From an archaeon (GTDB lineage Archaea > Thermoproteota > Nitrososphaeria > Nitrososphaerales > Gagatemarchaeaceae), in contig JAJYWC010000003.1 of assembly GCA_021791695.1 (NCBI GenBank), positions 1-64,000 of the forward strand: DNA of 64,000 nt, read 5' to 3'. The notes beneath the pieces were generated by a model, which made no database searches, was not told where the DNA came from, and saw nothing but the letters and a program-made list of their open reading frames with translations. Positions within the stretch are counted from its first letter, which is position 1. Every line of letters begins with the position of its first letter. This document shows positions 1-50,447 of the stretch, piece after piece. The translations under genes were made by a program, and so were the position numbers.

Positions 1-3000
1 GATTCGACGAGCCTGCCCCTGAAAATCTTGGTTCCCCCTGTCTCTTCCTTCCATCTGTTCTCCTCCTGAGGCGTCAGGAATCCTGGATAATCGCGCCCAC
101 GTTCCCCGAGGATGGCAAAAAGCCGGTCCCCGTCTGTTGGGTTGCCGTCAAAGTACCTCTGCATCGCTAGTTCGAAGGTCAGGGTCAAGTCGAACCTGCT
201 CCCAGCAATAGCCTCGTAGTCGGCTAGTGCTTTCCTCCGAGCCGAAAGGTCCCTCGGCGAGAGAGCTTTGATGAGTTTGACATGTTCTCTGATAAGCCAG
301 AGATTACCCTTGTCGATGGCCAGACCCTTCTCCACCAAGTCCAGTGCTCCACCAGGTGAACCGCGGCTCATCTCAAGCATTGCCATGAAGGCATAGCCGT
401 TCCCTCGTCCCACGGTGTTAGTGATTTGTTCTACTTTCTGAGTACTGAGGTTCTCCGTCTTGAGCAGACCGAGGACCCTTTCTTTGAATTGCGAGATTTC
501 TCTGTTGGACCACTCTCCCAGAGCGTTCTCTGCATACACGAGCCAATACATCGCCGCGAGAAGAAGCTGCCACCTTTCGCTGCTGTTGGGCGCTATCTCT
601 GCCATCTTCTCGTACGTCTCGCCAAGCCCTTGGTAGGAGTGGGGAGCTACGCTCGGCCCCCCACTGAGCTGAACGGCGTCAACGAAGTGACCTTCAGCGG
701 CGGTGAGGAACTCGCGGGCACCCAGTACGTCATCGTGCTCTAAGCGTTCTTCAGCCTTTCTGAGCTCGAGTCGTCCCTCGGCATCGAATACGTGATAGTC
801 CGGCTCATGAAAGCCCCTAATGTTCGCAGTCTTTGCTCTATTTAGCGAAAGCCGGGAGTCGTCAAACAATTTCGCCTCCCTTTGGGCTATAGCGAGGTGG
901 ATGTAGAGCGGCCTTGACTGGACTCTCTTGACAGCAAGGTCGAGTAATTCGACACGTTGTGTCTCCTTCAGGCCTTCGGAGGCTTGCATGAACCTCCATC
1001 GTACTGTTAGGAAGGCGTGCATGAGGTCTACTTCTTCAAGTGTGTCGGATTGCACGTTCTCGATAATGCTCTTGAGGACTGCGTACCTTTCGGCCGGTGT
1101 CTTGAACGCCATCTCAGAGACGATTTCAGCCTGAATCCTATTCGCTACGCCAAGTGTATTCTGACCCTCTCTGAATGAGACCACCCCACCCAAGCTCCTG
1201 CTCATCTCGGCGTGCAGGATATCTCTGGCAACACCCGCACTCCTCGTAGTTAGGGACGTCCAAGGCCTAAGAGTGAAGGACTGGATGAACGACACATAGG
1301 CGTATACTTTCTGAGCGTTCTGGTCGAGGGAAGAGAACTCCTTCGCGACAGCCTTGGCAAGAGGGATATCAAGCCCCTTGACAGAGGTGTAGAGGAGTGC
1401 GAAGAAAGAGGAGTTGATTTCCTTGTCTCGGAGATTCTTATGCCAGAGCTCCTTCTTCTCGAGTGAACCGAGTCTCGCGAAGTGTCTCCCAAAGCTCTCC
1501 CATTCCATCTCTCCAACCGAGTCGTCAAGCTCGAAGACCACATCCACGGGCGATGACCTCAGTGCATCAAAAGGCGCGTCGGTCTTCCTTGCCACTACGA
1601 GGATGTCAACGGGCTTCGCTATCCCGCGGAGACGGTTCTTGAGGGCGATTAGAGCGTCCAAGTGAACAATTCCGTCATCTGCGACGAGGAGGAACCGTGG
1701 GCTTTTGACAGCCTGCGGCCCAGCCCTCGACGCGGCCTCGGAGGCGTACTTCGCCCACACCTCGTCCAGCAATCCCTCCAATGCCGGGAAATCCAAGACG
1801 AGCGCTCCTGGCTCAATAAAGACCACCGGGTTCCCCGAGTGGTACCAATCGTATGCTAACCTACGCATTGCCACGGTCTTGCCGGATGCCGCAGCTCCAA
1901 CGAGTACTGCCACAATGTTGTCCGAGGAGTTCGTGTTGCCAAGCCGGCCCATCATGTCCGAGAGAGAGACAGGTAGCTGCTGGGCTCTCTTAGCCATCCA
2001 GATTGCTTTGGTCTTCCTCGGATAGTCCCACCTCATTGCATAGGGATAGAACGAAGTCTCGGCCCCGAGAACGAACGCCGTTTGGCTAAGGCCTGATTTT
2101 GGCTGCGCGAGCATGGCGTCTTCCAGAACAGAGTACCGATTGGCTATGTTAGAAAGAGTCGCACGGTCCACCTCCACTGGCACCCTCTTGATTGTGAGTT
2201 TCGGCGCTGCCGGCGCCCCGCTGTCAGGCCTAGGACCGACTGACTGATTCGCCGCAGCGAGAAAGGCCGCCAGGTCGCCTTGAACCCACTCGATACCCAA
2301 TGAATGCATCGCCCTGAGCATCTCTTCGCGGGGCTTTGTCGGCGTGACGGCGAATCCCTTCCATGTGAACTCCCTAAGCACGAGTCGCATCTCCTGGAGT
2401 AACTGAATCACAAGCCCATCCTCGAACGAGTACCCGAGGTAGACCATGTGACCGGAAAGGGCAAGCTCCCTAAAGACCTCGAAGAATCTTCGCCTCCTTT
2501 CGGCTCCAAGGCTCATGTCCGAGGTAGCTAGTACCATCCAGCCGCCGGTGGGGAAGTTGTGTTTCGAGCTCCCCATTAGTTGCAGGCAATATAGCAGGTC
2601 CTCCCTTGAAATGGAAATTTTGGGTTCGGATTCAGGGTCAGAGACGGGTATGATTGTTCTACTGCCATCTATGGTCACTCCAACGGAGTCCGGCAGAGCA
2701 TCGTAGTTCGTTGTCATGGTCGCCCGCCAAGGCAGCGAGAACAGGTACCTTTGTTCATCTCCAGCAGAGACGGCCGCAAGACGCTCCTGGACCCAATCCT
2801 CAACCTCCCGACGGTTCGCGTTGTCGAGTCCTATTACGTTGCCCATGTAATCCATTAGGCGCTCGGTTCCCTTCTCCCCGAATCTCGCCTTTGCTTGCAT
2901 TAGGAGCTCCCCGCCACTCGGGCCCCCGCACCCCATTGCAACTCCTGCACCGAAAAAGAGCGTTGCGCGCTTCTCCATTATCTTGGCAACGACGTCGGCA

Positions 3001-3032
3001 AGACTCGTCCCGTCCCGAGTTGTGGTCGACAT
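1..3032 (-). CDS. SIR2-STAND NTPase, Avs5-like antiphage candidate (C-terminus outside window)
   Basis: A frame starting at ATG 3032 stays open to base 1, giving about 1010 residues and no stop. Residues 24-39 form a SIR2-like nucleotide-binding loop (LFFGAGVAMG then P38), followed by TTNYD at 107-111 and LGYSFED at 199-205, as in SIR2_2-type NADases. A P-loop follows at 379-386 (GAAASGKT) with Walker B LLVADD ending near 453, which fits a STAND NTPase. The rest, about 600-1010, is helical and TPR-like, the usual sensor region. In known SIR2-STAND proteins, target recognition triggers NAD+ depletion and abortive infection. One oddity is that the usual catalytic His of the HG motif is Met153 here, with His158 nearby. 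A TATA-like element lies near 3070. The domain calls are from motif reading and the defence role is inferred. Confidence 0.8.
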   Translation of the reverse strand, partial: MSTTTRDGTSLADVVAKIMEKRATLFFGAGVAMGCGGPSGGELLMQAKARFGEKGTERLMDYMGNVIGLDNANRREVEDWVQERLAAVSAGDEQRYLFSLPWRATMTTNYDALPDSVGVTIDGSRTIIPVSDPESEPKISISREDLLYCLQLMGSSKHNFPTGGWMVLATSDMSLGAERRRRFFEVFRELALSGHMVYLGYSFEDGLVIQLLQEMRLVLREFTWKGFAVTPTKPREEMLRAMHSLGIEWVQGDLAAFLAAANQSVGPRPDSGAPAAPKLTIKRVPVEVDRATLSNIANRYSVLEDAMLAQPKSGLSQTAFVLGAETSFYPYAMRWDYPRKTKAIWMAKRAQQLPVSLSDMMGRLGNTNSSDNIVAVLVGAAASGKTVAMRRLAYDWYHSGNPVVFIEPGALVLDFPALEGLLDEVWAKYASEAASRAGPQAVKSPRFLLVADDGIVHLDALIALKNRLRGIAKPVDILVVARKTDAPFDALRSSPVDVVFELDDSVGEMEWESFGRHFARLGSLEKKELWHKNLRDKEINSSFFALLYTSVKGLDIPLAKAVAKEFSSLDQNAQKVYAYVSFIQSFTLRPWTSLTTRSAGVARDILHAEMSRSLGGVVSFREGQNTLGVANRIQAEIVSEMAFKTPAERYAVLKSIIENVQSDTLEEVDLMHAFLTVRWRFMQASEGLKETQRVELLDLAVKRVQSRPLYIHLAIAQREAKLFDDSRLSLNRAKTANIRGFHEPDYHVFDAEGRLELRKAEERLEHDDVLGAREFLTAAEGHFVDAVQLSGGPSVAPHSYQGLGETYEKMAEIAPNSSERWQLLLAAMYWLVYAENALGEWSNREISQFKERVLGLLKTENLSTQKVEQITNTVGRGNGYAFMAMLEMSRGSPGGALDLVEKGLAIDKGNLWLIREHVKLIKALSPRDLSARRKALADYEAIAGSRFDLTLTFELAMQRYFDGNPTDGDRLFAILGERGRDYPGFLTPQEENRWKEETGGTKIFRGRLVE

Positions 3033-3105
3033 GAAGCTGCCCCAACAATTCGGGGGATTGGACTGATAAACACTCTGAATACATGGTTCGAGATAGACAG
3101 CCCAG

Positions 3106-3294
3106 CTAAAGCTCAGTTACGATGACTCGTTTGCGGGGCAGGTCGATGGTCACCTCAACAGCCTGTCCAGGCTTGAAGGGGAACTGCGAGTCTTTGGCGA
3201 CCTCCGTGGGCACGTAGATGAAGAACTTGTCGTACTTCTTGCTTCCAGTCCTAGTGGGCCGGTTGACGAATCGCCCTGACCCTTTGTTGGCCAA
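3106..3294 (-). CDS. AbrB/SpoVT-like small protein
   Basis: Sixty-two residues from a TTG start at 3294. The start was chosen because a TATA-like TTATAA lies about 20 bases upstream and the protein-like segment begins here; the longer frame upstream is unconvincing. The sequence (FFIYVPTEVAKD, then FKPGQAVEVTID and KRVIVTEL) looks like the swapped-hairpin beta pattern of AbrB-type proteins. It lies 73 bases upstream of the SIR2-STAND gene on the same strand, so it may be co-transcribed and may regulate it. The family call is tentative. Confidence 0.55.
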   Translation of the reverse strand: MANKGSGRFVNRPTRTGSKKYDKFFIYVPTEVAKDSQFPFKPGQAVEVTIDLPRKRVIVTEL

Positions 3295-3346
3295 ATTTGG
3301 TGACACAGGCTTATAATCCCGAGTTTCTGCATTTCCGAGCACCAAA

Positions 3347-3823
3347 GTGGTGCCACAAAACTTAGGCAACGCCAGAGCAGGTATAGGCGCGGGCGTAGCT
3401 GTCCTACTTATCATCGTCATAGCTGCAGTAATCGCGTTCTTGGCAATCTCCTCTGGAGTCGGTGGCTTCGGTGAAGGAACGCAGACAACCACGACAACCT
3501 ACAGCACTGACGGCGCTCCATTGGCTCAGGTCACGGCCTCTCTGGTTATCAACTCCGATGGGACTACAATCCTCACCGGCAGCGTCAAGAACATCGACAC
3601 CCAAAGCTTCGGAGCTGCCGGACTGATGTTCGACGGCCTAGACACAGGCTCATTCTCTCTGACATAGCCTCAGCTTGTGCAGGTGGGCCAGTCGGCCAGC
3701 TGGAGCTACACGTGGAGCTATGGCGGGTTAGAAAGCGGGCATGGATACCCTCTCGAGATTGCTCTCTATATCCCGCAGACGGGCAGTTACCAAGACATCA
3801 CCCTTACAGTCGACGCCACCTGA
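3347..3823 (+). pseudogene. Archaeal pilin-like secreted protein with in-frame TAG
   Basis: From GTG 3347 the frame encodes a short basic N-terminus, a long hydrophobic helix (AVLLIIVIAAVIAFLA) and a Thr-rich stalk, as in archaeal type IV pilin-like proteins. The frame meets TAG at 3665-3667. The same frame then continues for 51 more codons of extracellular-type sequence to TGA at 3821-3823. The full product would be about 158 residues. This looks like one gene interrupted by a nonsense codon. Readthrough with pyrrolysine is possible in principle, but no pyl genes are in the window. It overlaps the 5' flank of the AbrB-like gene on the other strand. Confidence 0.6.
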
Positions 3824-3840
3824 TTGTCTTTGTCTTATCC

Positions 3841-4014
3841 TCAAATGATTTCCTCCCCAGTTAGCACGGCGGGATTGACCAGTGCCTCCCTCTCCTCCAG
3901 CTTCTTGTAGAACATGTGGATGGGTGTCTCGACCTTCGAGAGGTCGAACGCTCCGTGAGGCCTAACCTCGTTATACCCCGACAGTCGGCGGGTTTCATTC
4001 AGGAAATTTTGAGC
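3841..4014 (-). pseudogene. Transposase 3'-terminal remnant (DDE/rve type)
   Basis: Fifty-seven codons ending at TGA 3841-3843 read FLNETRRLSGYNEVRPHGAF followed by a segment rich in charged residues. The YNxxRPHGA block is the typical C-terminal end of rve-fold transposases of the IS3/IS481 kind. The frame is blocked by TAG just upstream of 4014, so the catalytic core is missing. It overlaps the end of the wHTH gene in another frame. It is an old insertion scar inside the island. Confidence 0.65.
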
Positions 4015-4738
4015 TACCGGTCAGCCTTTCGGCTGCATATTCCAGACGCTCTTTCTCTTGCTGTCGAATGTTGAGTATCAAAGCCAACTGTTCCTCGGCA
4101 CGTGTCCGCTCTGTCTTCGAATACGTCATGTCGGACATCTTTTTCGCCAGTCTCTTTGCCCGAGCTTTAGCTTCATCGTCCAAATTTTCAAGCCTGCGGT
4201 CTAGTTGGTCCCATGTTTCCGCGACGAACTGGGGAAGCAGAGATACCAATGCCCTAGGAGGCCACTTCCGAAGGGCAGAATCAAAGTCATTGACCCTAGT
4301 TTCGACTTCCGTGGTCCGAATCCCCTTCTCCTTCAGCTTCTTCCGGTACCGCCCAACCAATCGCTTTTGGAATTCTCTAAGAGCCCGCTCGACTCTGAAT
4401 GCAAGCCAGTCGAACTCCGAGGCGTCGATGTCTCCCGGCAAGTCCGCCTCTTTCAGGAATCCCTTTGGGAAGGTAAAAACTCCCGTCGAATGTCGTTTCT
4501 CCAATTTCATCATCTGCGACCTTCTCTGAGCCTCGGCCGTATAGAAGGTCTCTACGACTGACCCTCGCTCTAGGAGTGCCCATCTCCCGTTTGTCTTTCT
4601 GGCTCGCAGACTATTCAACGCTCTAGCGACTTGAGAGCTCTCCAATCCAGTTCCCTTCTTGATTTGGCCGAACCTACTCGGCCCATTGTTGCGCAAGTAT
4701 GACTCTACGCCATCTGCGTGAGTAGAATAGCGTGCCAA
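3995..4738 (-). CDS. wHTH DNA-binding protein with long coiled coil
   Basis: 247 residues. Residues 1-60 (pattern GPSRFGQIKKGTGL then SSQVARALNSLRARK) fit a winged helix. Residues from about 90 on are strongly charged and helical, with heptad-like runs at 120-170 and 180-240. I recognise no family for the C-terminal part. The gene is divergent from the operon at 4795-7676. A tandem repeat of GGTAACGCT between the two starts suggests it controls that operon and itself. The 3' end overlaps the transposase remnant, so the C-terminal residues may have been changed by that insertion. Confidence 0.6.
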   Translation of the reverse strand: MARYSTHADGVESYLRNNGPSRFGQIKKGTGLESSQVARALNSLRARKTNGRWALLERGSVVETFYTAEAQRRSQMMKLEKRHSTGVFTFPKGFLKEADLPGDIDASEFDWLAFRVERALREFQKRLVGRYRKKLKEKGIRTTEVETRVNDFDSALRKWPPRALVSLLPQFVAETWDQLDRRLENLDDEAKARAKRLAKKMSDMTYSKTERTRAEEQLALILNIRQQEKERLEYAAERLTGSSKFPE

Positions 4739-4740
4739 GT

Positions 4741-4770
4741 GGTAACGCTTGGTAACGCTGCTATAATTAA
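4741..4770 (+). promoter_or_regulatory. Direct-repeat operator plus TATA box of the integrase/methyltransferase operon
   Basis: GGTAACGCT occurs twice in tandem (4741-4749 and 4751-4759) and is followed at once by CTATAATTAA (4761-4770). The TATA-like element sits about 29 bases before the ATG at 4795, the normal archaeal spacing for a leaderless message. The repeats lie between divergent genes next to a wHTH gene, so they are a likely operator; that link is inferred. Confidence 0.55.
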
Positions 4771-4794
4771 GAGTATTATTCTAATGAAGAAGAA

Positions 4795-4941
4795 ATGCAA
4801 ATCAGAGGGGTCGTCAGAACTGAACTCACGTGCGACCGGTGCAAGTATAGTTGGTCGCCCAGGCTCATGCGCCCCAAAGTGTGTCCGAGGTGCAAGAACT
4901 TCCTCGACTGGCCCGACACCAAGGAGGATGCGACTGGTTGA
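4795..4941 (+). CDS. Small zinc-ribbon protein
   Basis: Forty-eight residues from ATG 4795. Two knuckles are visible: CDRC at residues 13-16 and CPRC at 31-34, with the pattern CxxCxYxWxPR...PKxCPRCK between and around them. This is a familiar layout of tiny archaeal zinc ribbons that bind nucleic acid or protein. It is the first gene of the operon that continues with the DUF1016-like gene (20 bases later), the methyltransferase and the integrase. Confidence 0.7.
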   Translation: MQIRGVVRTELTCDRCKYSWSPRLMRPKVCPRCKNFLDWPDTKEDATG

Positions 4942-4961
4942 ATCTGCAAGCGCCGCGAGCT

Positions 4962-5408
4962 ATGGTTGCAAGCCAAGACGAGGTCGGGGCTATTGCCGCC
5001 GAAATCAGACAACTCGTGGGAGGGATTGTCTACCACGGATGGGAACAGCTACGCAGGAAGCACGCGATAGGAGTACGTGTAAGGCAGGCGAAGAGCGCTC
5101 TCAAGCATGGGTCGAAGACAGTATTCCTTGAGAAGCTGGCTTCCCAAGCTAGTTGTAGCACTTCATTCCTGCACAGCTGTGAGCAGTTCGCGGACCTGTA
5201 CCCGACGTGGGATGAAGCCATCGGGGCTATTTCTCCAATGTTTGTAAATTCCGAGCCAAATTGGGACTGGATAGTTTCGAACCTACTAACTAAGAGGAGA
5301 GGGCAACCTCTCAGGTCTCACGAGTGCTTCAGATGTCGTGAAGCCTCGGCAGATGCTGAGAGGCTACCGTGCTGCAAGAGGTGCTACTTGGAGCTTGTCG
5401 GGGGTTAG
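4962..5408 (+). CDS. DUF1016-N-like protein with C-terminal zinc finger
   Basis: About 148 residues from ATG 4962; an upstream in-frame extension is less protein-like and would overlap the zinc-ribbon gene. Residues 8-90 carry the alternation seen in the N-terminal domain of DUF1016/YhcG proteins: an AAEIRQLV helix, an IGVRVRQAK segment, and a block ending CEQFADLYPTWDEAI. No PD-(D/E)XK nuclease domain follows. The C-terminus instead holds CFRC and CCKRC, a likely zinc finger. The 3' end overlaps the methyltransferase start by 14 bases, which suggests translational coupling. Function is unknown. Confidence 0.55.
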   Translation: MVASQDEVGAIAAEIRQLVGGIVYHGWEQLRRKHAIGVRVRQAKSALKHGSKTVFLEKLASQASCSTSFLHSCEQFADLYPTWDEAIGAISPMFVNSEPNWDWIVSNLLTKRRGQPLRSHECFRCREASADAERLPCCKRCYLELVGG

Positions 5409-6351
5409 CTTCTTCGATGTCTTCTCGGGCATCGGAGGATTCAGACTTGGACTCGAGAGACTTGGATGGCGATGTTACGGCCACTGCGAAATTGACGGTG
5501 CGCGTAGGGAAGTCTACAGAAGGAATTTTCAGACTGCAGTACAGGAAGACAACTATGATATTGCGGAGTTAGACTATCTTGAGGGAGCGGACGTGCTCGT
5601 CGGCGGATTCCCATGCCAGAGCTTCTCGATGGCAGGCAAGAGAAGGGGATTTTCTGACGCGAGGGGACAGTTGTTTCTGCACCTACCGAGACTGTTATCC
5701 CTCTGCAGGCCGAAGGCGTTTCTCTTCGAGAATGTGAAGGGGCTCCGAATGACTCCGTCAGCGATGGTCGAGGTCGTCTCCTCGCTGAAACGCACGGGGT
5801 ATGCCTTCGACTGGGCTGTCCTTGACTCGAGCATGTTCGGGCCTCCTCAGAAGAGAGAGCGGTTGTATTTCGTAGGTTTCAGGGACGGCATTCCGAAAGG
5901 TTTTGTGTTCCCCAAGGGCGAGCGAAATGGCTCAGCGGTCATTGATGTCATGGAGGCTCAAGTCGAGGCACGCTACTATGCCCCTGCGGTGATTGTAAGG
6001 TCTACCGAGTTTCTTCTCCCTCCTTTCTGGCGTCAGCGAGCCCGAGCCATAGTCAGCATAGGCCGCCATTCCCCGAAGGAATACGGCGGATGGGGGTTAG
6101 TCCTCTCCCCGTTCGGCTTGTCGCCTACCCTGGTTCCCGGTCTCGACCAGAGGGGCCAGCCGCTGTATTTGATAGAGGATGGGACCACTCTCCGCAGGCT
6201 TACGCCGAGAGAGTGGGCACGGCTGCAGGCATTCCCAGATTCGTTCAGGCTACCCGAGGACGACGCGCGGGCCTATCGCTACCTTGGGGACTCGGTAACG
6301 ACAACGGTCATCGAGGCAATCGGCGTGGAGATGGAGAAATGGCTCGCTTGA
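5395..6351 (+). CDS. DNA (cytosine-5) methyltransferase
   Basis: The SAM-dependent C5 methyltransferase motifs occur in canonical order: motif I FDVFSGIGGF, motif IV with catalytic Cys in GGFPCQSFS, motif VI FENVKG, motif VIII PQKRERLYFVGF, motif IX RLTPREWARLQAF, and motif X YLGDSVT near the end. The target-recognition region lies between VIII and IX. The TTG at 5395 puts motif I six residues from the N-terminus, as usual in the family; an ATG at 5338 in the same frame would add 19 odd residues. No cognate restriction enzyme is recognisable, so it may be an orphan that protects or marks the element. The 3' end overlaps the integrase gene by 13 bases. Confidence 0.9.
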   Translation: MSGVSFFDVFSGIGGFRLGLERLGWRCYGHCEIDGARREVYRRNFQTAVQEDNYDIAELDYLEGADVLVGGFPCQSFSMAGKRRGFSDARGQLFLHLPRLLSLCRPKAFLFENVKGLRMTPSAMVEVVSSLKRTGYAFDWAVLDSSMFGPPQKRERLYFVGFRDGIPKGFVFPKGERNGSAVIDVMEAQVEARYYAPAVIVRSTEFLLPPFWRQRARAIVSIGRHSPKEYGGWGLVLSPFGLSPTLVPGLDQRGQPLYLIEDGTTLRRLTPREWARLQAFPDSFRLPEDDARAYRYLGDSVTTTVIEAIGVEMEKWLA

Positions 6352-7676
6352 GCAGCCTGCCGACGCCGCCCACCAAGACTGAGACATACCGCGGTAATCT
6401 CGAGAAAACTGCGGAGAACTCAACATTCGCGATGACGGGAATAAGTAGCCTACCCACGCACTATCTTTCTACGGAACATGCGGCCCGGATTGCAAAGTTC
6501 GGGCTAAGGTGGGAACAAACGAAGCCAACCACGGAACAGACAACCAAGACCATCATCAACAGCAAGTACGCCGTCCTACTGGACAACGAGCAGGTGCGCC
6601 GCTGGTACAGCGGACTGAACAGGATGAGCGCGCACACAGCGAAGACTCGGCTGCGTCGCCTCGGACTCTTCTGCGCTCAACTACAAACGACGCCTACGGA
6701 GTTCGCATCGAGGAACCCCTCGACCGTCACAGACATCTTGGACGACTACGTGGGGAGAATGGACGAGCATGGGTATGCCCCCAGCTACGTACATACGTCC
6801 CTCGTCGCCCTCAAGTCCTGGCTCACACACTGCGGCGTGACGACCACGAGAAGAATCAGGGTGAGAGACTCGGACATTGCCACGACCTTGGCCAACGAGA
6901 AGGTCCCTGAGAGGGAGGAGCTGACCGAGCTGATGCTCCTCGGCTCGCTGAAGGCGCGTGTAATCAAGCAGCTCATGGCGAAGAGCGGGATAAGGCCCGG
7001 GGTAGTCGGCAACCACGACGGGAGCGACGGAATCCGGCTTGGCGACCTGCCAGACGTCGCGCTGTCAGCAACCGGGGGGACCATCCTCAAGAAGCCGGCC
7101 AGGCTCGTCGTGAGGCCTTCGCTCAGCAAGACGAGGAAGCAGTACGTGACCTTCCTTACAGCGGCCGCGGCGGACACAATCATCGCCTACCTCGAGAAGA
7201 GGGCGCTCAGCGGAGAGACGCTTGGTCCGGAGAGCTCGCTGGTTCTCCCGATAAGGTCGTCCTCTGCGAAGCAGTTCCTCACGAGCGCCGCCGTGAGTAA
7301 GCAGGTCAGGGACTCCATACGCCCCAAGTTCAAGCTGAGGCCATATGCCCTTAGAGCGTACTTCGACACGCAACTCCTCCAGGCGGAGGCGAGAGGCCTC
7401 GTCCCTGAGTCATTCAGAGTCTTCTGGATGGGCCACACCGGCTCGATTGACGCCGTCTACACGACGAACAAGAGGCGACTACCCGAGACGATGCTCCAGG
7501 AGATGAGGGACGCGTTCTTGAGGGCGGAGCAGTTCGTAGACCTAGACCTCCGCAGGGAGGACGAGCAGGAGAAGGCGAGGCGACAGGTTCAGGCCAAGGT
7601 CGAGCAGCTCGGTCCCGAGACGCTCGGCAGGGTCCTAAAGCTGATTGAGGAAATCGGCGGGAACACCCATGCCTGA
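6339..7676 (+). CDS. Tyrosine recombinase / integrase (C-terminal tail possibly frameshifted off)
   Basis: 445 residues from ATG 6339, chosen because it overlaps the methyltransferase stop and the region upstream is methyltransferase in another frame. An N-terminal SAM-like core-binding domain (about 70-190) precedes the catalytic domain. Candidate active-site residues are Arg219 (SGIRPG), Lys264 or Lys267 (SKTRKQ), Tyr336 and Arg339 in place of the usual HxxR (PYALRAY), His366 (WMGHTG) and Tyr374 (DAVYTTN). The gene points at tRNA-Arg and is the likely enzyme that inserted the island there. The frame ends at TGA 7674, but the next frame continues with a plausible integrase tail. Confidence 0.85.
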   Translation: MARLSSLPTPPTKTETYRGNLEKTAENSTFAMTGISSLPTHYLSTEHAARIAKFGLRWEQTKPTTEQTTKTIINSKYAVLLDNEQVRRWYSGLNRMSAHTAKTRLRRLGLFCAQLQTTPTEFASRNPSTVTDILDDYVGRMDEHGYAPSYVHTSLVALKSWLTHCGVTTTRRIRVRDSDIATTLANEKVPEREELTELMLLGSLKARVIKQLMAKSGIRPGVVGNHDGSDGIRLGDLPDVALSATGGTILKKPARLVVRPSLSKTRKQYVTFLTAAAADTIIAYLEKRALSGETLGPESSLVLPIRSSSAKQFLTSAAVSKQVRDSIRPKFKLRPYALRAYFDTQLLQAEARGLVPESFRVFWMGHTGSIDAVYTTNKRRLPETMLQEMRDAFLRAEQFVDLDLRREDEQEKARRQVQAKVEQLGPETLGRVLKLIEEIGGNTHA

Positions 7677-7796: not shown

Positions 7797-7874
7797 TGGC
7801 GGGCCCGGCAGGATTTGAACCCACGACATCCGGCTCCGAAGGCCGGCAGTCTATCCATACTAACTTACGGGCCC
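7797..7874 (-). tRNA. tRNA-Arg (anticodon TCG), CCA encoded
   Basis: A full cloverleaf folds on the minus strand. The acceptor stem is GGGCCCG/CGGGCCC, the D stem AGTT/GACT with GG in its loop, the anticodon stem CCGGC/GCCGG with loop CTTCGGA (anticodon TCG at 7839-7837), and the T arm GTGGG-TTCAAAT-CCTGC. The discriminator G at 7800 is followed by CCA at 7799-7797. The body is 75 bases with no intron. The 3' end faces the integrase, the usual attachment side for tRNA-targeting elements. Confidence 0.93.
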
Positions 7875-43207: not shown

Positions 43208-44521
43208 ATGACCTCGTTGCCTCGAGGCAAGGTCTCATCCAACAGGGAGGCGGTTTCGAAGGTCAGGGAGCTCACGAAGGCGCAGCACAAGTGGCGCACG
43301 GAGTGCCTGCCGCTGATGTGTTCCGAGAACGCAATGAGCCCTACGGCCAGAGAGCTCCTCGCATCTGATTTTCAGGGGAGGTACGTGAACTCCCACGGAG
43401 AGTTCTATTTCACCGGAGGTCAGTACATCGAAGCCGTCGACAAGGTCGCAGAGGACCTGGCGAAGCAACTGTTCGATGCAGAATACGTCGAGCTGCACTC
43501 CCCCTCGGCGGCTATGGCCTGCCGTATCCCCATACTGGCACTGCTCAGGAGGAACGACCTTGTCCTCAGTCTTGTCCCGAAGGACGGCGGATTCCCCACG
43601 ATACAGCACATGCGGTGGTTGCACCGGCTGGTCCCGCTCAGGGTTGGCGCCCTCCCATACCTGCCGGAGGACGTGAACATCGATGCTGACGCAGCCGTCA
43701 AGCAGGTGAGAAAAGAGAAGCCGAGGGTGGTGGTGCTCGGCGCCACGTTCTTCCTGTTCCCGCATCCTGTCTCCGAGATCGCCGATGCCGCGCACGAAGT
43801 GGGTGCCACCGTCATCTATGATGCGGCGCAGGTCTTCGGTCTGGTCGCGGGCAGGCAGTTCCAGAGACCCTTTAAAGAGGGGGCGGACATCATCACGGGG
43901 AGCACCCACAAGACGCTGCCGGGTCCCATGGGAGGCATCATCCTGATGAGGAAGGACGGAGAGCTCGCGCGAGAGATAACGGCAATACAGCACGGGGCGA
44001 CCGGGATGGGCCATCCGAACCTGCGGCCCGTCCAGGCGGCGCTCTTCGCGGAGATGCTAGAGTTCGGGCAGGACTATGCGAAGCAGGTCATAAAGAACTC
44101 GCAGGCGCTCGCCCAGTCGCTCTCCGACAGAGGCTTCAGGGTCGTAGGCGAGAAGCACGGGTTCACAAAGTCACACATGCTGGTCATCGACGTCTCCAAG
44201 CTCGGCGGGTCGTACGCCGCTGCGAAGGTCCTTGAGAAGGCCAACATCACTGGCACGCCATCGGGGATACCCGGAAAGGACAAGGTCCTCTACGGCGGCA
44301 AGATCTCGGGAATCAGGTTCGGTCCCGAGGAGTCCGTCAGGCTGGGGATGGGCGAGTCGGAGATGGACGAGGCCGCCGAGTTCGTCGCTAGGGCGCTGGT
44401 CAAGAAGGAAGACCCGAAAAGGGTGGCGAAGGACATTGCAGAGTTCAGGCGGGAATACCAGACGATGCACTTCTCGTTCGACGACGGGGCGCCCGCCTAC
44501 GCATATGCCTCGGTACGCTAA
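43208..44521 (+). CDS. Serine hydroxymethyltransferase-like PLP enzyme
   Basis: 437 residues from ATG 43208, about 25 bases after GATTTATTAG. SENAMSP replaces the usual SENxxS, and the PLP lysine is Lys235 in GSTHKTLPGPMGG. The PLP-contact Asp205 is in YDAAQVFGL, where SHMT usually has D-x-A-H: His is Gln208 here. Overall length and order fit SHMT, but the substitutions suggest a different amino-acid substrate. It neighbours two amino-acid-type permeases. Confidence 0.7.
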   Translation: MTSLPRGKVSSNREAVSKVRELTKAQHKWRTECLPLMCSENAMSPTARELLASDFQGRYVNSHGEFYFTGGQYIEAVDKVAEDLAKQLFDAEYVELHSPSAAMACRIPILALLRRNDLVLSLVPKDGGFPTIQHMRWLHRLVPLRVGALPYLPEDVNIDADAAVKQVRKEKPRVVVLGATFFLFPHPVSEIADAAHEVGATVIYDAAQVFGLVAGRQFQRPFKEGADIITGSTHKTLPGPMGGIILMRKDGELAREITAIQHGATGMGHPNLRPVQAALFAEMLEFGQDYAKQVIKNSQALAQSLSDRGFRVVGEKHGFTKSHMLVIDVSKLGGSYAAAKVLEKANITGTPSGIPGKDKVLYGGKISGIRFGPEESVRLGMGESEMDEAAEFVARALVKKEDPKRVAKDIAEFRREYQTMHFSFDDGAPAYAYASVR

Positions 44522-44564
44522 GGCCCGGCAGGGCAGGGCTTCGATTGCTTGCTCCAGCGTAGGT

Positions 44565-46145
44565 CTATTCTGGCGGGATTTCGGAGTAGACCAGCTTTAG
44601 GTCGAAGCCCTTCGACTTCTGGTAGAAGTAGTTGACAGAATATACAGCGAGTCCGGATACGAAAATTACCCCCAACAGTAAATCAGCCTGAGGTGTCGAC
44701 GGACCTATCGACGGGGTCGTGACAGAGAAGTAGAAGTTTATCGCCATCAATATCATCGATATGAAGCCCACTAGGGAAACCAGCGGGATGGACCAGCGAC
44801 TTCCTGGCAGCGAGGCAGCGATATCCTTCTTCTTGTAAGGAAGAACGACGGCCGAAAGACTTGCAAGGAACCAAACCACACTCCAGATTGCGACACTGTT
44901 CAGAAAGAGACCTATGAAGGACGTGTATGTAGCTATGCCGAGGAAGACGATGGCGAGAAGGAAATTCAGAACCGTTGCGTTGATGGGATTGCGAACCCGT
45001 TCGCTGACCTTCGAGAAGGTCGTGGGGAAGGCGCGGTCGAATGAGAACGCGAATATATATCTCGTTGCGACGAGAAGGAACGCAGCCAGATTCCAGAAGA
45101 AGGTGAGGACCCATCCAAGCTGGACCACTGTGAGGACGAAGATGTTGTGATTGATCATTGAGATGAAAAGGGGCATCCAAGGTGGTGCCACGAGGGGCCA
45201 CTTCGAACCAAGAGCTAGAGAAGCCTGGATGAAGGGGTAGCCGACAAGATTGAGACTCAATACGGTCCCTATCACGTTGACGACCCAGGCGAAGATCAAA
45301 GAACCAACTATAGCGAGCACCATACTACGTCTAACGTTCTTCACCTCGCCCGCAGCCGCTGCGGAGTAGTTCTGGCCGTTGAACAGCAAGACCGCGAGAG
45401 GGGTACTTAGGAGTGTAATTCCAGTAGCTATCGGGACATACTTGAACCCGTTCGCCGCTGCCTCGCTGATGACACCATTGTAGCTGAGACTGGTTCCCGC
45501 GAACCCGTTCACTGCATTCACAAAGTCCGCATGGGAGGCACTCGCGAGTACGAAAAACGAGGCGAACGTCCCGGCCATTATGAGAATAAAAAGGGCCGCC
45601 ATCACGCGCGTGAAAATCTTCGGCCGGAGCATCGTGATTAGAAACGAGACCGCTATTAGGAACAGACCGAGAGCGAATATGTCTGACGTACTACCGACGA
45701 TCGTCGATGAGAGATTGATCAGTGACATATTGTTGAGCCCGTAGCCGAACGCCGCGAGAGTGTCGGGCACTATCACCGAGCCGAATACCACTCCCTCTGT
45801 CCCGAATATCGCTATGATCGCAACCCAGAATCCCCATCCCGACATGAATCCTACGATGGGGTTCACGAGCCGTGTTATCCAGACGTAGTCTCCGCCCGAG
45901 CGCGGCATTCCCGTCGCCATCAGAACGTAGACAATGGCGAGCGGCAGGGTGAACAAAAGTCCCAAGTGCTCAGAAGTAACGATGTCGGCCCCTGGGTCAG
46001 CGCTCGCAACGAAAGCAATCTGGGAGGAGTACGACCACACACTAGGAAGTACTACGGCGGAGCTGATGAGAAAGGCGTCAAACCAAGAGAAATCACGGAC
46101 AAGACCAGTTGCCTCCCTCGCGAATATCTTTGGCGAATGCGCCAA
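44565..46145 (-). CDS. APC family amino acid permease
   Basis: 526 residues from TTG 46145, about 36 bases after GTTTATTATTGG (the frame extends upstream into the promoter). About 12 membrane helices; the N-terminus FAREATGLVRDFSWFDAF and LLFTLPLAIVYVLMATGMPR with a later SGGDYVW fit the APC superfamily. It shares the start block and the last residues (EIPPE) with the permease at 47459, so they are paralogues. Confidence 0.8.
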   Translation of the reverse strand: MAHSPKIFAREATGLVRDFSWFDAFLISSAVVLPSVWSYSSQIAFVASADPGADIVTSEHLGLLFTLPLAIVYVLMATGMPRSGGDYVWITRLVNPIVGFMSGWGFWVAIIAIFGTEGVVFGSVIVPDTLAAFGYGLNNMSLINLSSTIVGSTSDIFALGLFLIAVSFLITMLRPKIFTRVMAALFILIMAGTFASFFVLASASHADFVNAVNGFAGTSLSYNGVISEAAANGFKYVPIATGITLLSTPLAVLLFNGQNYSAAAAGEVKNVRRSMVLAIVGSLIFAWVVNVIGTVLSLNLVGYPFIQASLALGSKWPLVAPPWMPLFISMINHNIFVLTVVQLGWVLTFFWNLAAFLLVATRYIFAFSFDRAFPTTFSKVSERVRNPINATVLNFLLAIVFLGIATYTSFIGLFLNSVAIWSVVWFLASLSAVVLPYKKKDIAASLPGSRWSIPLVSLVGFISMILMAINFYFSVTTPSIGPSTPQADLLLGVIFVSGLAVYSVNYFYQKSKGFDLKLVYSEIPPE

Positions 46146-46234
46146 ATGACGATGCTCGCGGTAAGTGGGATCATGCCAATAATAAACGTTCTTGGGCGTC
46201 GTTCCATCGAGGGACAATAGACGACGAGGCAATC

Positions 46235-47265
46235 TCAGGGGACCATGAGGACTTTGACAGCCTCTTTGGCGAGTACCAACTGGAATGCAAGTTCAATCTG
46301 TTCCAGCGGAAGCTTGTTCGAGACTATCCTGTCGGCATGCACTTTTCCAGACGAAATCAAATCGATCGCCCTTTCGTAGGTGAGCCACGTGTAGTCGAAG
46401 CTCCCCGTGACCCTGAGGGATTTTCCGACTATGAGCGAGGAACTGATGGTGGAGGACTCCAGAGTCGCGCCGACGAGGCATACTTGACCATCCTTCCGGC
46501 ACAATTTCAGCGACTGCTCGAGCGCGGTGGGGTTTCCGCTAGCCTCCAGGACTGCATCAGCCCCGAGATTACCGGTAATCCCGTAGACCTTCTCCACTGA
46601 ATCCTCTTCATCAACATTGATGACATAATCAGCACCATCTCTCTCGCAAGGTCGAGTCTCTTTTTGTGACGGCCAGCTGTCACTACCGTTCCGTAGCCGA
46701 GCGACCGGGCGACTGCTGTGGCAAGTAGTCCTATCGGGCCCGCCCCAAGTATCACTATGGTATCCCTGATTCCCAAATCGAACCTTTCGAACGGGTGTAA
46801 TGCCGCCGAAAGAGGTTCGACCAACGAGCCTTGTTCGTACGTCATCGAATCGGGCAACAAGTGTAGGTCATATGCCGGGACTGCCACGTATTCGGCATAA
46901 GCACCATCACGGTCCACGCCTATCTCTCTGATCGAAGTGCAGAAGACTCGTTGCCCGGTTTTGCAGAAGTAACAATGTCCGCAGGTTACCGTGATCTCCG
47001 CGCATACTCTGTCGCCTATCTTGAAGTCATGGACGTTGTCTCCCATCGATTCTATCGATCCTGAGAACTCGTGACCCGGAATGAATGGGATCGGAAGCTT
47101 TGGAAGGTTACCGATGTCGTGTCCCCTGTAAATGTGGATGTCGCTACCGCAGATGCCGACTGACCTAACCCGAAGCACGACCTCATCAGCCGACCTACGA
47201 GGAGGGTCGAGACCCTCCTTGAATTCAATTCCGGGCCCGGGCTTTGTCTTCACACCCGCTTTCAA
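46235..47265 (-). pseudogene. Zinc-dependent MDR dehydrogenase (sorbitol/threonine DH type), frameshifted
   Basis: From 47265 the frame encodes the GroES-like domain with catalytic-zinc Cys in VGICGSDIH, GHEFSG, a structural zinc lobe CGHCYFCKTGQRVFC, and QGSLVEPLSAALH. A Rossmann motif (VILGAGPIGLLA) follows. At about 46635 the frame breaks. The alternative frame carries GADYVINVDEEDSVEKV and the rest of the protein to 46235. One extra G in ATGG(T) would restore a normal protein of about 343 residues. It is either inactive or a base-calling error. Confidence 0.75.
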
Positions 47266-47458
47266 TGAAACTCGAGTGGAAGCCGTAGCTGGTTTTTCTT
47301 AAGAGTTTCAACCAGTCGGCCTTGGCGAAGAGCATCCATCTTCACTGCAAATCGCACTCAGGGCGGGGGACAGTTTATCGCATAGTTCTTTACTAAAGCA
47401 TATATATCATTCATGTTCCTCAAGAACATTAGAACTCGCGAACGCGAGGAAACGCGAA

Positions 47459-49051
47459 ATGGCACAGAAGACCTTCCTGAGGGAGGCCACCGGCCTCGTT
47501 CGTGACTTCGGCACGATTGACGCCCTTCTCTTCGCAATCGGCGCAATAATCGGTCCGTTCTGGGTCGTAGGCTTCAGCTCGGAGTGGTATCTTTTCCCGG
47601 GTGTAAACATCCCGGCGTCTCTCATCATAGTCTCGTTCCTTGGTCTGGCGAATGGAGTCTACTACATATTGATCACCTCCGTGATTCCGAGAAGCGCGGG
47701 CGGCAGCTATGGCGCGCTCAGCAGAGCAGTCCATCCTCTGCTCGGCATGGTGATGAGCCTCATATTCTCAGCCGGTCTTCTGCTGAACATCGGCTTCATC
47801 GCCGACATCACCTTCTCGGTAGGAATCGCGTCGCCGCTCACCTCCTATGCTACGGTCACCGGCAACACTGGCCTCGCCTCCCTGGCGACGACCCTAGCCA
47901 CACCTACAGTCGTTTTCGGTATAGGGACTGTCTTCATAGTACTGATTGCGCTCATAGCGGCGGCCGGCACCAGAGCGATAATCCTCGCCAACAAGATCGC
48001 GTTCGTAGTTGGGACGGCCGGCATCCTGGCTCTGATTGGGATACTGGTGACGACGACGACCGCTCACTTTCAGACAGTCGTGAACGGGTTCGCGGGTTCG
48101 AATGTCTATCAGAATATCACCAGTACCGCTCCCGCGGTTGGGATGAAGATTCCTTCGAGCTGGGTGGAACCAACGATCCTCTCGCTGCCAGTCTCGTTCT
48201 TCATCATCCTCGGCTACGCGTTCAACACTTACTACGCTGGTGAGATCAGGAGGGTCACCAGGAGTATGACCATCGCCGTAGTGGGCGCCATCATCTTCGC
48301 CGGTGGCTTCTTCTCGCTGCTGGCGTGGTTGATGGAGTACAGCTTCGGCAGCAACTTCATCGTGGCAGCGAACTACCTGTTCAACGAGGCCCCGTCGAAA
48401 TACCCGTTGAGCATAGCCCCTTATGTAAATTCCCTCGCGGCGCTGGTCGACAGCAACCCGCTGGTCAACATACTGATCATGGCTAACTTCGTGGCATGGG
48501 GCTACTTCCTGATAATCAACTTCATCTTCATCCCATCGCGCAACTTCCTAGCCTATTCGATGGACGGGGTCTTCCCAGCGAGGCTCGGGGCGGTGAGTGA
48601 CCGCTACCACAGTCCGGTAGTCTCGATAGCCGTCTGCTCGCTGATAGGAATCGGCGCACTGGCATTTCTCGTCTATCTGCCGACTGTGGGCGGCGCCGTC
48701 AACGTGACATACCTCATAATCGGCGGTACGGCACTGGACGGGCTGGCCGGTGTCGCGCTGGTCCTGAGGAAGAAGAGGACTTTCGAAGAGGCTCCGCCAA
48801 TCGCTAAGAAGAAGGTGGCCGGCATCCCTGTCATAGCGATTCTGGGCGCGTACAGCGTGGTCTTCATCCTGTCCCTGATTGCGCTCGCTCTCTTCAACCC
48901 AGTCATAATCGGTCCGCTCGGACTGGTCACCGATGTGACCACCATGCTTGCCATCCTGGTAGCCGTCGTGAGCTACTTCGGGATGAAACAATACAACAAG
49001 CGCAGAGGCATCGACGTCAATCTGGCCTTCAAAGAGATACCTCCGGAGTAA
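47459..49051 (+). CDS. APC family amino acid permease, paralogue
   Basis: 530 residues, about 12 membrane helices. FLREATGLVRDFGTIDALLF at the start and FKEIPPE at the end match the permease at 44565-46145. PRSAGGSYGALSR is the helix 2 loop typical of APC transporters. A strong TATA-like CATATATATC lies about 55 bases upstream, so this message may have a leader. Confidence 0.82.
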   Translation: MAQKTFLREATGLVRDFGTIDALLFAIGAIIGPFWVVGFSSEWYLFPGVNIPASLIIVSFLGLANGVYYILITSVIPRSAGGSYGALSRAVHPLLGMVMSLIFSAGLLLNIGFIADITFSVGIASPLTSYATVTGNTGLASLATTLATPTVVFGIGTVFIVLIALIAAAGTRAIILANKIAFVVGTAGILALIGILVTTTTAHFQTVVNGFAGSNVYQNITSTAPAVGMKIPSSWVEPTILSLPVSFFIILGYAFNTYYAGEIRRVTRSMTIAVVGAIIFAGGFFSLLAWLMEYSFGSNFIVAANYLFNEAPSKYPLSIAPYVNSLAALVDSNPLVNILIMANFVAWGYFLIINFIFIPSRNFLAYSMDGVFPARLGAVSDRYHSPVVSIAVCSLIGIGALAFLVYLPTVGGAVNVTYLIIGGTALDGLAGVALVLRKKRTFEEAPPIAKKKVAGIPVIAILGAYSVVFILSLIALALFNPVIIGPLGLVTDVTTMLAILVAVVSYFGMKQYNKRRGIDVNLAFKEIPPE

Positions 49052-49104
49052 TCCGGGGGCTCTGCAATATTTAACTAGCAAACTACCAACCATCCTACTG
49101 GAAA

Positions 49105-49878
49105 TTGAGGAAGGTCCATGTACTGCCTGTGGGGCACGAAATGGGTGACAAGGGCGGCATCACCCTTCTGAAAGACATCGGCAAGACAATCGAGATTCCT
49201 TACCATAGCTATCTTATCGAAGACCCTGAAGCGAACATCCTTGTCGATACCAGTTCCTCCGTCAGATGGAAGGAACTCCATCCGGTGGCCTTGTCCAAGT
49301 TCTGGCCGGTCCACATGAAGGTCAGCGAGCGTCCGAACAGGGTGCTGGAGCGCATCGGTTTCTCCCCCGACGACATCGATTACGTGGTCAACACGCACCT
49401 GCACTATGACCACTGTGGAAATAACGCGTTATTCCCGAAGGCGACGTTCTTGGTCCAAGAGGACGAGCTGTTGCATGCGAGCTCTCCGAGCTGGTGGGAG
49501 GCGTTCCCATACGTGAAAAAAGTGTTCGATGTCGCAGGACTCAAGTACAAGTCGCTGAAGGGCGATTTTCAGGTCGTGCCGGGAGTAACTGCGATTCAGA
49601 CACCAGGGCACACAGAGGGGCACCAGTCTGTGGTGGTCGAACTCGAGAGAAGCGGCGTTGTAGTCCTTGCGGGAGATGCAATATACGTAAGGGAGAACCT
49701 TGAGGACCCCATCCTCCCCGGGCTGTACGTTGATGCCCGTATGTACGCTGAATCCATGCAGAGAATCAAGGACATCGTCAAGAAACGGAACGGTACGTTG
49801 CTACTCTCTCATTCGCGCGAATATCTTTCTCCGAAGGGCTGGAAGAAGCTTCGGCCAGGCGTCTCCACCTTCGACTGA
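49105..49878 (+). CDS. Metallo-beta-lactamase-fold hydrolase (lactonase-like)
   Basis: 257 residues from TTG 49105. The metal motif is NTHLHYDHCGNN, with further ligands in PGHTEGHQ and LAGDAIY and a late SH (LLLSHSREY). The layout is that of the AHL-lactonase branch of the fold. The context of permeases and dehydrogenases suggests a catabolic lactone or ester rather than quorum quenching. Confidence 0.82.
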   Translation: MRKVHVLPVGHEMGDKGGITLLKDIGKTIEIPYHSYLIEDPEANILVDTSSSVRWKELHPVALSKFWPVHMKVSERPNRVLERIGFSPDDIDYVVNTHLHYDHCGNNALFPKATFLVQEDELLHASSPSWWEAFPYVKKVFDVAGLKYKSLKGDFQVVPGVTAIQTPGHTEGHQSVVVELERSGVVVLAGDAIYVRENLEDPILPGLYVDARMYAESMQRIKDIVKKRNGTLLLSHSREYLSPKGWKKLRPGVSTFD

Positions 49879-49901
49879 TTACGGGACCATCTCCTTTCTG
49901 G

Positions 49902-50447
49902 CTATTCCTGAAAGCCCGTATAGCCTGAAAAGAGTGAGAACACCCCATCGTCGACATTCATAATCAAGCCGTTTGCATAATCCGATTCTGCAGAAGCTAA
50001 GAAGAGGGTTGCGTTAGCTTGCTCGTCGGGAGAGGACGGCCTACCGAGCGGGATCCGCTTCGCCCGCATGTCTAGGTATGCCTTCTTGTAATTGTCGCTG
50101 ACGAGCGTGGTGAGCGTGGTTCGCGGACACAGACAGTTCACGTTTACGCCATGTCTTCCAAAATCGATAGCGAGAGTTCTTGTTATCCCAACGACTCCTT
50201 GCTTGGGCGCAACGTAGCCTATCGAGCTGGGGATTCCGACGGTCCCCGCCATGGAGTGCGACGATATTCGACTTCCCCCAGCGGCCATGAACCCCGCTGG
50301 GCTGCTAAAGCCCCTGAGATGATGGCTGCCGGTCAACTGCTTATCTGAATCTGCACATTTTGCCTTGAATGACTCGAGCATCCGCATGGTGTCCTCGTAG
50401 CCGTTACCGGGAGGGAAGTGCAACTTTGAACGAACGTTGCGACTCAT
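49902..50447 (-). pseudogene. Truncated short-chain dehydrogenase
   Basis: The C-terminal half of an SDR is clear: Tyr/Lys in GYVAPKQGVVG, GVNVNCLCP, and the end SDYANGLIMNVDDG. The N-terminal cofactor loop (TGxxxGIG) and NNAG motif are missing; the first 70 residues of the frame are not SDR-like. It looks like a decayed copy of the SDR type at 30604 or 39863. Confidence 0.6.

Follow-up and report, generated by a model that had tools for sequence, protein, structure and literature searches.

The window analysed here comprises the first 64,000 nucleotides of contig JAJYWC010000003.1 from an archaeon of the Gagatemarchaeaceae, whose 1.8-Mb draft genome (GCA_021791695.1) is spread over 77 contigs and is 72% complete. 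Its left end is occupied by a minus-strand reading frame that starts with the ATG at base 3032 and continues for 1010 codons to base 3, with no stop codon on the way, as an earlier sequence-only reading had claimed. Leftward extension of the frame is impossible because base 1 of the window is also base 1 of the contig. The open frame cannot be due to chance since its product aligns from end to end with relatives of 1052 and 1057 amino acids at 35–40% identity. Judged against the relatives, some 45–50 C-terminal residues are absent from the window copy. A search of the same genome for this missing end with a family profile returned the present locus as its sole match, the others being weak P-loop matches. 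Directly upstream of the gene (3106–3667), two short ORFs on opposite strands overlap each other, and one of them has a membrane-anchor-like start. Neither has a convincing family match among the domain models searched, and the true start of the one on the minus strand (3106–3492) is uncertain.

The gene sits on the left side of an island reaching up to a tRNA-Arg(TCG) gene (7797–7874, minus strand; identified with ARAGORN), which we take as integration target and right edge. The island also encodes a C5-cytosine DNA methyltransferase (5338–6351, plus strand; Pfam DNA_methylase, E = 2e-65) and, downstream of it, a tyrosine recombinase/integrase (6090–7676, plus strand; start uncertain). The match of the latter to the NCBIfam model XerA_Arch (E = 1e-4) is far below the cut-off of the model, and its ORF abuts the 3′ end of the tRNA gene. 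The GC content is 0.53–0.56 over bases 1–6000 and ~0.62 in most of the remaining window. Five congener stretches carry the adjacent eIF2B-like gene and four of them also match the tRNA, but none of the five, when read at this locus, has the SIR2-STAND, methyltransferase or integrase genes. An integrase at the 3′ end of a tRNA gene and absence from congeners are two of the features expected of an archaeal integrative element, a duplicated attachment site being the third, and the island location proposed from the letters alone is borne out. No second attachment site was found in the assembly, as would be the case if it lies past the end of the contig. A candidate partner site at C20:27520 was rejected, being the 3′ end of an apparent intron-containing tRNA among core genes. 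One congener has at the same locus a tRNA-Arg(TCG) gene with a predicted 17-nt intron (L079, 2741–2835) that the window copy lacks. A second low-GC stretch is found at 44001–50000 (0.54–0.56 against ~0.62) and is possibly another insertion.

Domain organization of the protein and its relatives

The combination of a SIR2 domain, a P-loop STAND NTPase and a long helical region had been proposed for the product from the letters alone. Domain searches match both SIR2 and STAND (that neither would be matched had been named as an outcome fatal to the proposal) and the helical array is present in the AlphaFold2 model. All domain coordinates below refer to the minus strand. The SIR2 domain spans residues 10–262 (2247–3005) and carries the motifs GAGV (residues 28–31), TTNYD (107–111) and GYSFxD (200–205). 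The single sequence is recognized by the PADLOC ThsA model (E = 9e-9, residues 11–231) and by Pfam SIR2_2 (E = 4e-5), while profile comparison matches ThsA (E = 6e-22) and DSR2 (E = 5e-15). The STAND NTPase covers residues 341–535 (1428–2012) and matches Pfam nSTAND_NTPase7 (E = 8e-10; 38.7 bits against a cut-off of 27, residues 365–531) and nSTAND_NTPase5 (E = 1e-7). Its Walker A sequence GAAASGKT (residues 379–386; 1875–1898) and the acidic DD pair of Walker B (residues 452–453; 1674–1679) were located by alignment, in which GxxxSGKT and DD are retained in the window protein and in its closest relatives. This NTPase is flanked by SIR2 on one side and by TPR-like repeats on the other, the arrangement expected of a STAND protein. 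The TPR-like helical array, the presumed sensor, extends over residues 691–985 (78–962) and is defined by AlphaFold2 helices with pLDDT mostly between 75 and 95. The single sequence has a weak match to TPR_14 (E = 0.04) and family profiles match TPR proteins. In the model of the whole window protein (pLDDT 68) the regions of SIR2 and of the P-loop consist of alternating strands and helices, and the long helical array follows them. The last codons (3–77) encode a linker leading toward a presumed C-terminal cold-shock/OB domain beyond the contig end, as judged from the alignment with two archaeal relatives and from the tests on relatives described below.

Close relatives of the window protein were not found with the single sequence in viral contigs, plasmids, phages or genome contigs. 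Whole-genome searches identified full-length relatives in two Bathyarchaeia genomes, one of 1057 amino acids with 40% identity (locus L004) and one of 1052 amino acids with 35% identity (L005, from Candidatus Bathyarchaeota FK_Sedi_B_Bin.165). This Bathyarchaeota genome and the window host share a phylum but differ in class. Profile searches added L011, from the class of L004 and L005, and L008, from the Bacteroidetes. A second SIR2-STAND gene in the genome of L004 (L006, G427:C13, 1–2223, minus strand) has an NG motif in its SIR2 domain and runs off its locus.

A short segment rich in beta strands closes every full-length member of the family. Over the whole domain the profile of this segment matches the cold-shock proteins CspE (E = 2e-10) and UNR (E = 8e-11) in the PDB, and Pfam CSD recognizes six of 13 members singly, with a best E-value of 5e-11. 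The archaeal C-termini were tested separately because they are degenerate, the one of L004 being unrecognized by Pfam. An HMM built from bacterial sequences only finds them in L011 (E = 2e-4), L005 (E = 2e-4) and L004 (E = 0.01), the best of 1000 shuffled proteins used as control having an E-value of 0.29, and hhalign gives a probability of 97%. The window protein ends just short of this domain, which is presumably missing from it only owing to the contig end. Complete members measure 1034–1106 amino acids and have the common layout SIR2-STAND-TPR-CSD.

State of the SIR2 active site

SIR2_2 domains are assumed to work via NAD+ hydrolysis. In an alignment of 21 sequences the position of the catalytic His is taken by Met153 (codon at 2574–2576) in the window protein and by Met in L008 and L011, while L004 and L005 have Leu. 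ThsA, DSR2 and the family members from proteobacteria have the HG dipeptide at this position, and NG is found in PaAvs5, Hymenobacter, L028 and L006. Across the family the other motifs (GAG, TTN-D and the GYSF-D loop) show little change, and GAG, TTN-D and G-D are kept in the proteins with Met or Leu. The GAGV and TTNYD sequences of the window protein are those expected of a SIR2_2 NADase, with the Ser of GAGxS represented by Ala, Cys or Ser in the close group, and the catalytic His or Asn expected of an active enzyme is absent. A nearby His or Tyr was rejected as a substitute for the catalytic residue, since it is missing from L008 and L011.

The window protein, L004, L005, L008 and L011 form one clade, with a support of 94 in the SIR2+NTPase tree, of 100/100 with the full-length alignment and of 100 with the SIR2 columns left out. 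The replacement of His is thus most simply explained by a single change that both archaea and Bacteroidetes then retained. Conservation among the three closest proteins is highest in SIR2 (47% against 29–38% elsewhere), which argues against decay.

Canonical NADase activity of the window protein is doubtful because of Met153 and of the Met or Leu found at the same position in the four nearest relatives; from these residues, the SIR2 domain of the clade is probably unable to hydrolyse NAD+ in the canonical way. Of the proposed SIR2-type NADase, the SIR2 domain stands and the NADase is in doubt. The protein could be an active abortive-infection NADase like Avs5, ThsA or DSR2, in which Asn109 and Asp111 suffice and Met or Leu is tolerated as Asn is in the NG-type Avs5. 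Neither the catalytic Asn nor the NAD motifs vary, the conservation of SIR2 in the close group points the same way, and His is dispensable in the NG-type Avs5 (PMC12931631). The invariant TTN-D would also fit retained catalysis. However, Met and Leu cannot take the base role or the hydrogen bonding of His or Asn, and PaAvs5 needs one of these two residues: both N153A and N153Q abolish its protection (PMC12931631). We regard an active NADase as rather unlikely.

Distribution and genomic surroundings of the family

Starting from L008, homologues were reached on plasmids of Hymenobacter, Klebsiella, Vibrio, Psychrobacter, Acinetobacter and Methylobacterium, one of them adjoining a type I restriction system, and profile searches found further ones on several viral contigs. 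They are annotated merely as “SIR2 family protein”. The same four-part layout is common among these bacterial proteins, so that the C-terminal region is not specific to archaea. Matches at L012 and L013 were spurious. On several Klebsiella plasmids and one Acinetobacter baumannii plasmid the homologue lies in pieces (for example L018, 4914–7934; plasmid CP101888.1, 267210–270276), and is therefore often inactivated.

The family is rare in archaea: it was found in one of 400 genomes of the window's class and in three of 398 in a sample of the phylum, and the class of the Bathyarchaeia relatives has three clear full-length copies in 257 genomes. Among the archaeal copies an obvious island surrounds only the one in the window, and the three from Bathyarchaeia are solitary among housekeeping genes and outside defence islands. 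The neighbours of L025, L007 and L026 are partly translation-related (ThrRS-like, ABCE1/RLI, eIF2alpha and an apparent aminoacyl-tRNA synthetase), a situation that may reflect either coincidence or an integration preference. The neighbour genes differ from locus to locus, which makes a single-gene system likely and a dedicated partner unlikely. Another locus (L027, G103:C149, 4774–5541, minus strand) carries a C-terminal fragment 56% identical to residues 796–955 of the window protein, which continues in the same frame into a truncated piece resembling RNase HII and lies next to a tRNA-Ala gene; it is apparently a decayed and recombined copy at another tRNA.

The housekeeping and translation-gene surroundings of archaeal copies, together with the cold-shock/OB domain and the altered SIR2, would suit a function outside defence, such as a NAD-responsive STAND regulator or an RNA-binding stress protein. 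The patchy distribution, the probable integrative element and the relatives on plasmids and viral contigs argue for defence instead, and we consider a non-defence role unlikely.

Proposed working and comparison with known systems

The reading that we favour, with a probability of roughly 0.5 for the explanation as a whole, is that the window ORF encodes a single-gene STAND-type sensor up to ~95% of its length, with the layout SIR2*-STAND NTPase-TPR-cold-shock/OB (the asterisk denotes the missing His), which would act as an Avs-like, ATP-switched defence protein whose SIR2 is a pseudoenzyme or a strongly altered enzyme rather than a canonical NADase. By analogy with STAND proteins, the TPR array and the C-terminal OB domain would detect a viral protein or nucleic acid. 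Binding and hydrolysis of ATP at the intact Walker A/B site may then convert an autoinhibited monomer into an oligomer or filament, and the N-terminal SIR2 modules gathered by this oligomerization would deliver the output. In the Met/Leu clade SIR2 may bind NAD(H) or ADP-ribose and serve to drive assembly or regulation; the corresponding region of SAMD9 appears to act in this way. The mobile contexts, namely the island in the window and the plasmids and viral contigs of relatives, support this defence reading.

The description “Avs5-like” given to the protein at first sight is not supported in that form. The protein and Avs5 both have an N-terminal SIR2, a central STAND NTPase and C-terminal helical repeats, and the AlphaFold2 model of the window protein has EfAvs5 (9jap) as its best match among solved structures in Foldseek (E = 1.4e-17). 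The full-length protein of L007 (pLDDT 72, pTM 0.47) also has EfAvs5 first (E = 1.7e-20), with the AVAST5 filament 9nc9 (E = 1e-13) and DSR2 among its further matches. With pLDDT values of 72 and 68 the quality of the two models is middling, and Avs5 is matched at a low global TM-score (0.2). Against this, the NCBIfam Avs5 model NF041814 does not match the window protein and gives its relatives at most 27 bits for a cut-off of 1000. The relatives bear an extra C-terminal CSD/OB domain, as found in the SAMD9 core, and at ~1050 amino acids they are longer than the solved EfAvs5 sequence (869) and the Avs5 model (763). The NTPase of the window protein matches nSTAND7/nSTAND5, while nSTAND3 (PF20720), reported for PaAvs5, is absent from its matches and below cut-off in relatives. 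The HG or NG of Avs5 is replaced by MG in the window protein and by LG, LG, MG and MG in the four nearest relatives. A simply divergent archaeal Avs5, in spite of its first rank in Foldseek for both models and the shared SIR2, STAND and helical repeats, is thus very improbable. Nothing useful was found in the literature on the nSTAND5 family, and the curated PADLOC and NCBIfam models cover the family only in SIR2 or other parts.

ThsA, DSR1 and DSR2 share a homologous SIR2_2 domain, in which all three retain the His. ThsA differs by the lack of STAND and TPR, and the Dsr1 and Dsr2 models match only the SIR2 part of the family. The bacterial proteins of plasmids and viral contigs have the four-part layout and the length of 1034–1106 amino acids, but their catalytic position holds His (the proteobacterial clade) or Asn (Hymenobacter and L028).

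The core of SAMD9/SAMD9L, known from animals and some bacteria, has in order a variant Sir2, a STAND-like P-loop domain, TPR and an OB fold closest to cold-shock proteins (Mekhedov et al., PMC5445408), the same order as in the full-length relatives described here. A structural likeness between Avs5 and SAMD9 was remarked by the PaAvs5 authors (PMC12931631), and human SAMD9 is matched by the L007 model in Foldseek (E = 2e-17) with TM-scores of 0.32–0.36 against ~0.2 for Avs5. SAMD9 was not among the top 50 Foldseek matches of the truncated window protein, nor, at the sequence level, among the best 60 matches of the NTPase profile. The family differs from SAMD9 by the absence of the SAM and AlbA_2/tRNase domains, for the latter of which the window protein has no room because its SIR2 starts at about residue 10, and by its Walker A with the canonical lysine, which ends in GKT in the window protein and GKT or GKS in relatives as compared to GGT/S, with Gly for the lysine, in SAMD9. 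Some SAMD9 family members have themselves lost the AlbA_2/tRNase domain. In rabbit SAMD9 the SIR2 region is needed although the enzyme is a tRNase (PMC12331169). A further reading, which we hold to be a long shot, is that in the SIR2 with Met or Leu in place of His, Asn109 and Asp111 cleave off nicotinamide while the hydrophobic residue excludes water, so that the acceptor of ADP-ribose would be a protein, or else RNA/DNA bound to the C-terminal OB domain. If true, this would be a new NAD+-using effector chemistry, and the family would be a living intermediate between the NADase Avs proteins and SAMD9, whose SIR2 lost NADase activity.

The window protein belongs to a little-described SIR2-STAND-TPR-CSD family and, within it, to a His-less clade of archaea and Bacteroidetes in which the NAD-binding motifs are kept and the catalytic His is swapped for Met or Leu. 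With its position on a probable integrative element, the range of SIR2-STAND immune-type proteins now includes mobile elements of archaea. Through the complete SIR2-STAND-TPR-OB layout, one prokaryotic family connects the Avs-type proteins of bacteria with the core of SAMD9, and the role of SIR2 in SAMD9-like proteins becomes testable in a simple single-gene system.
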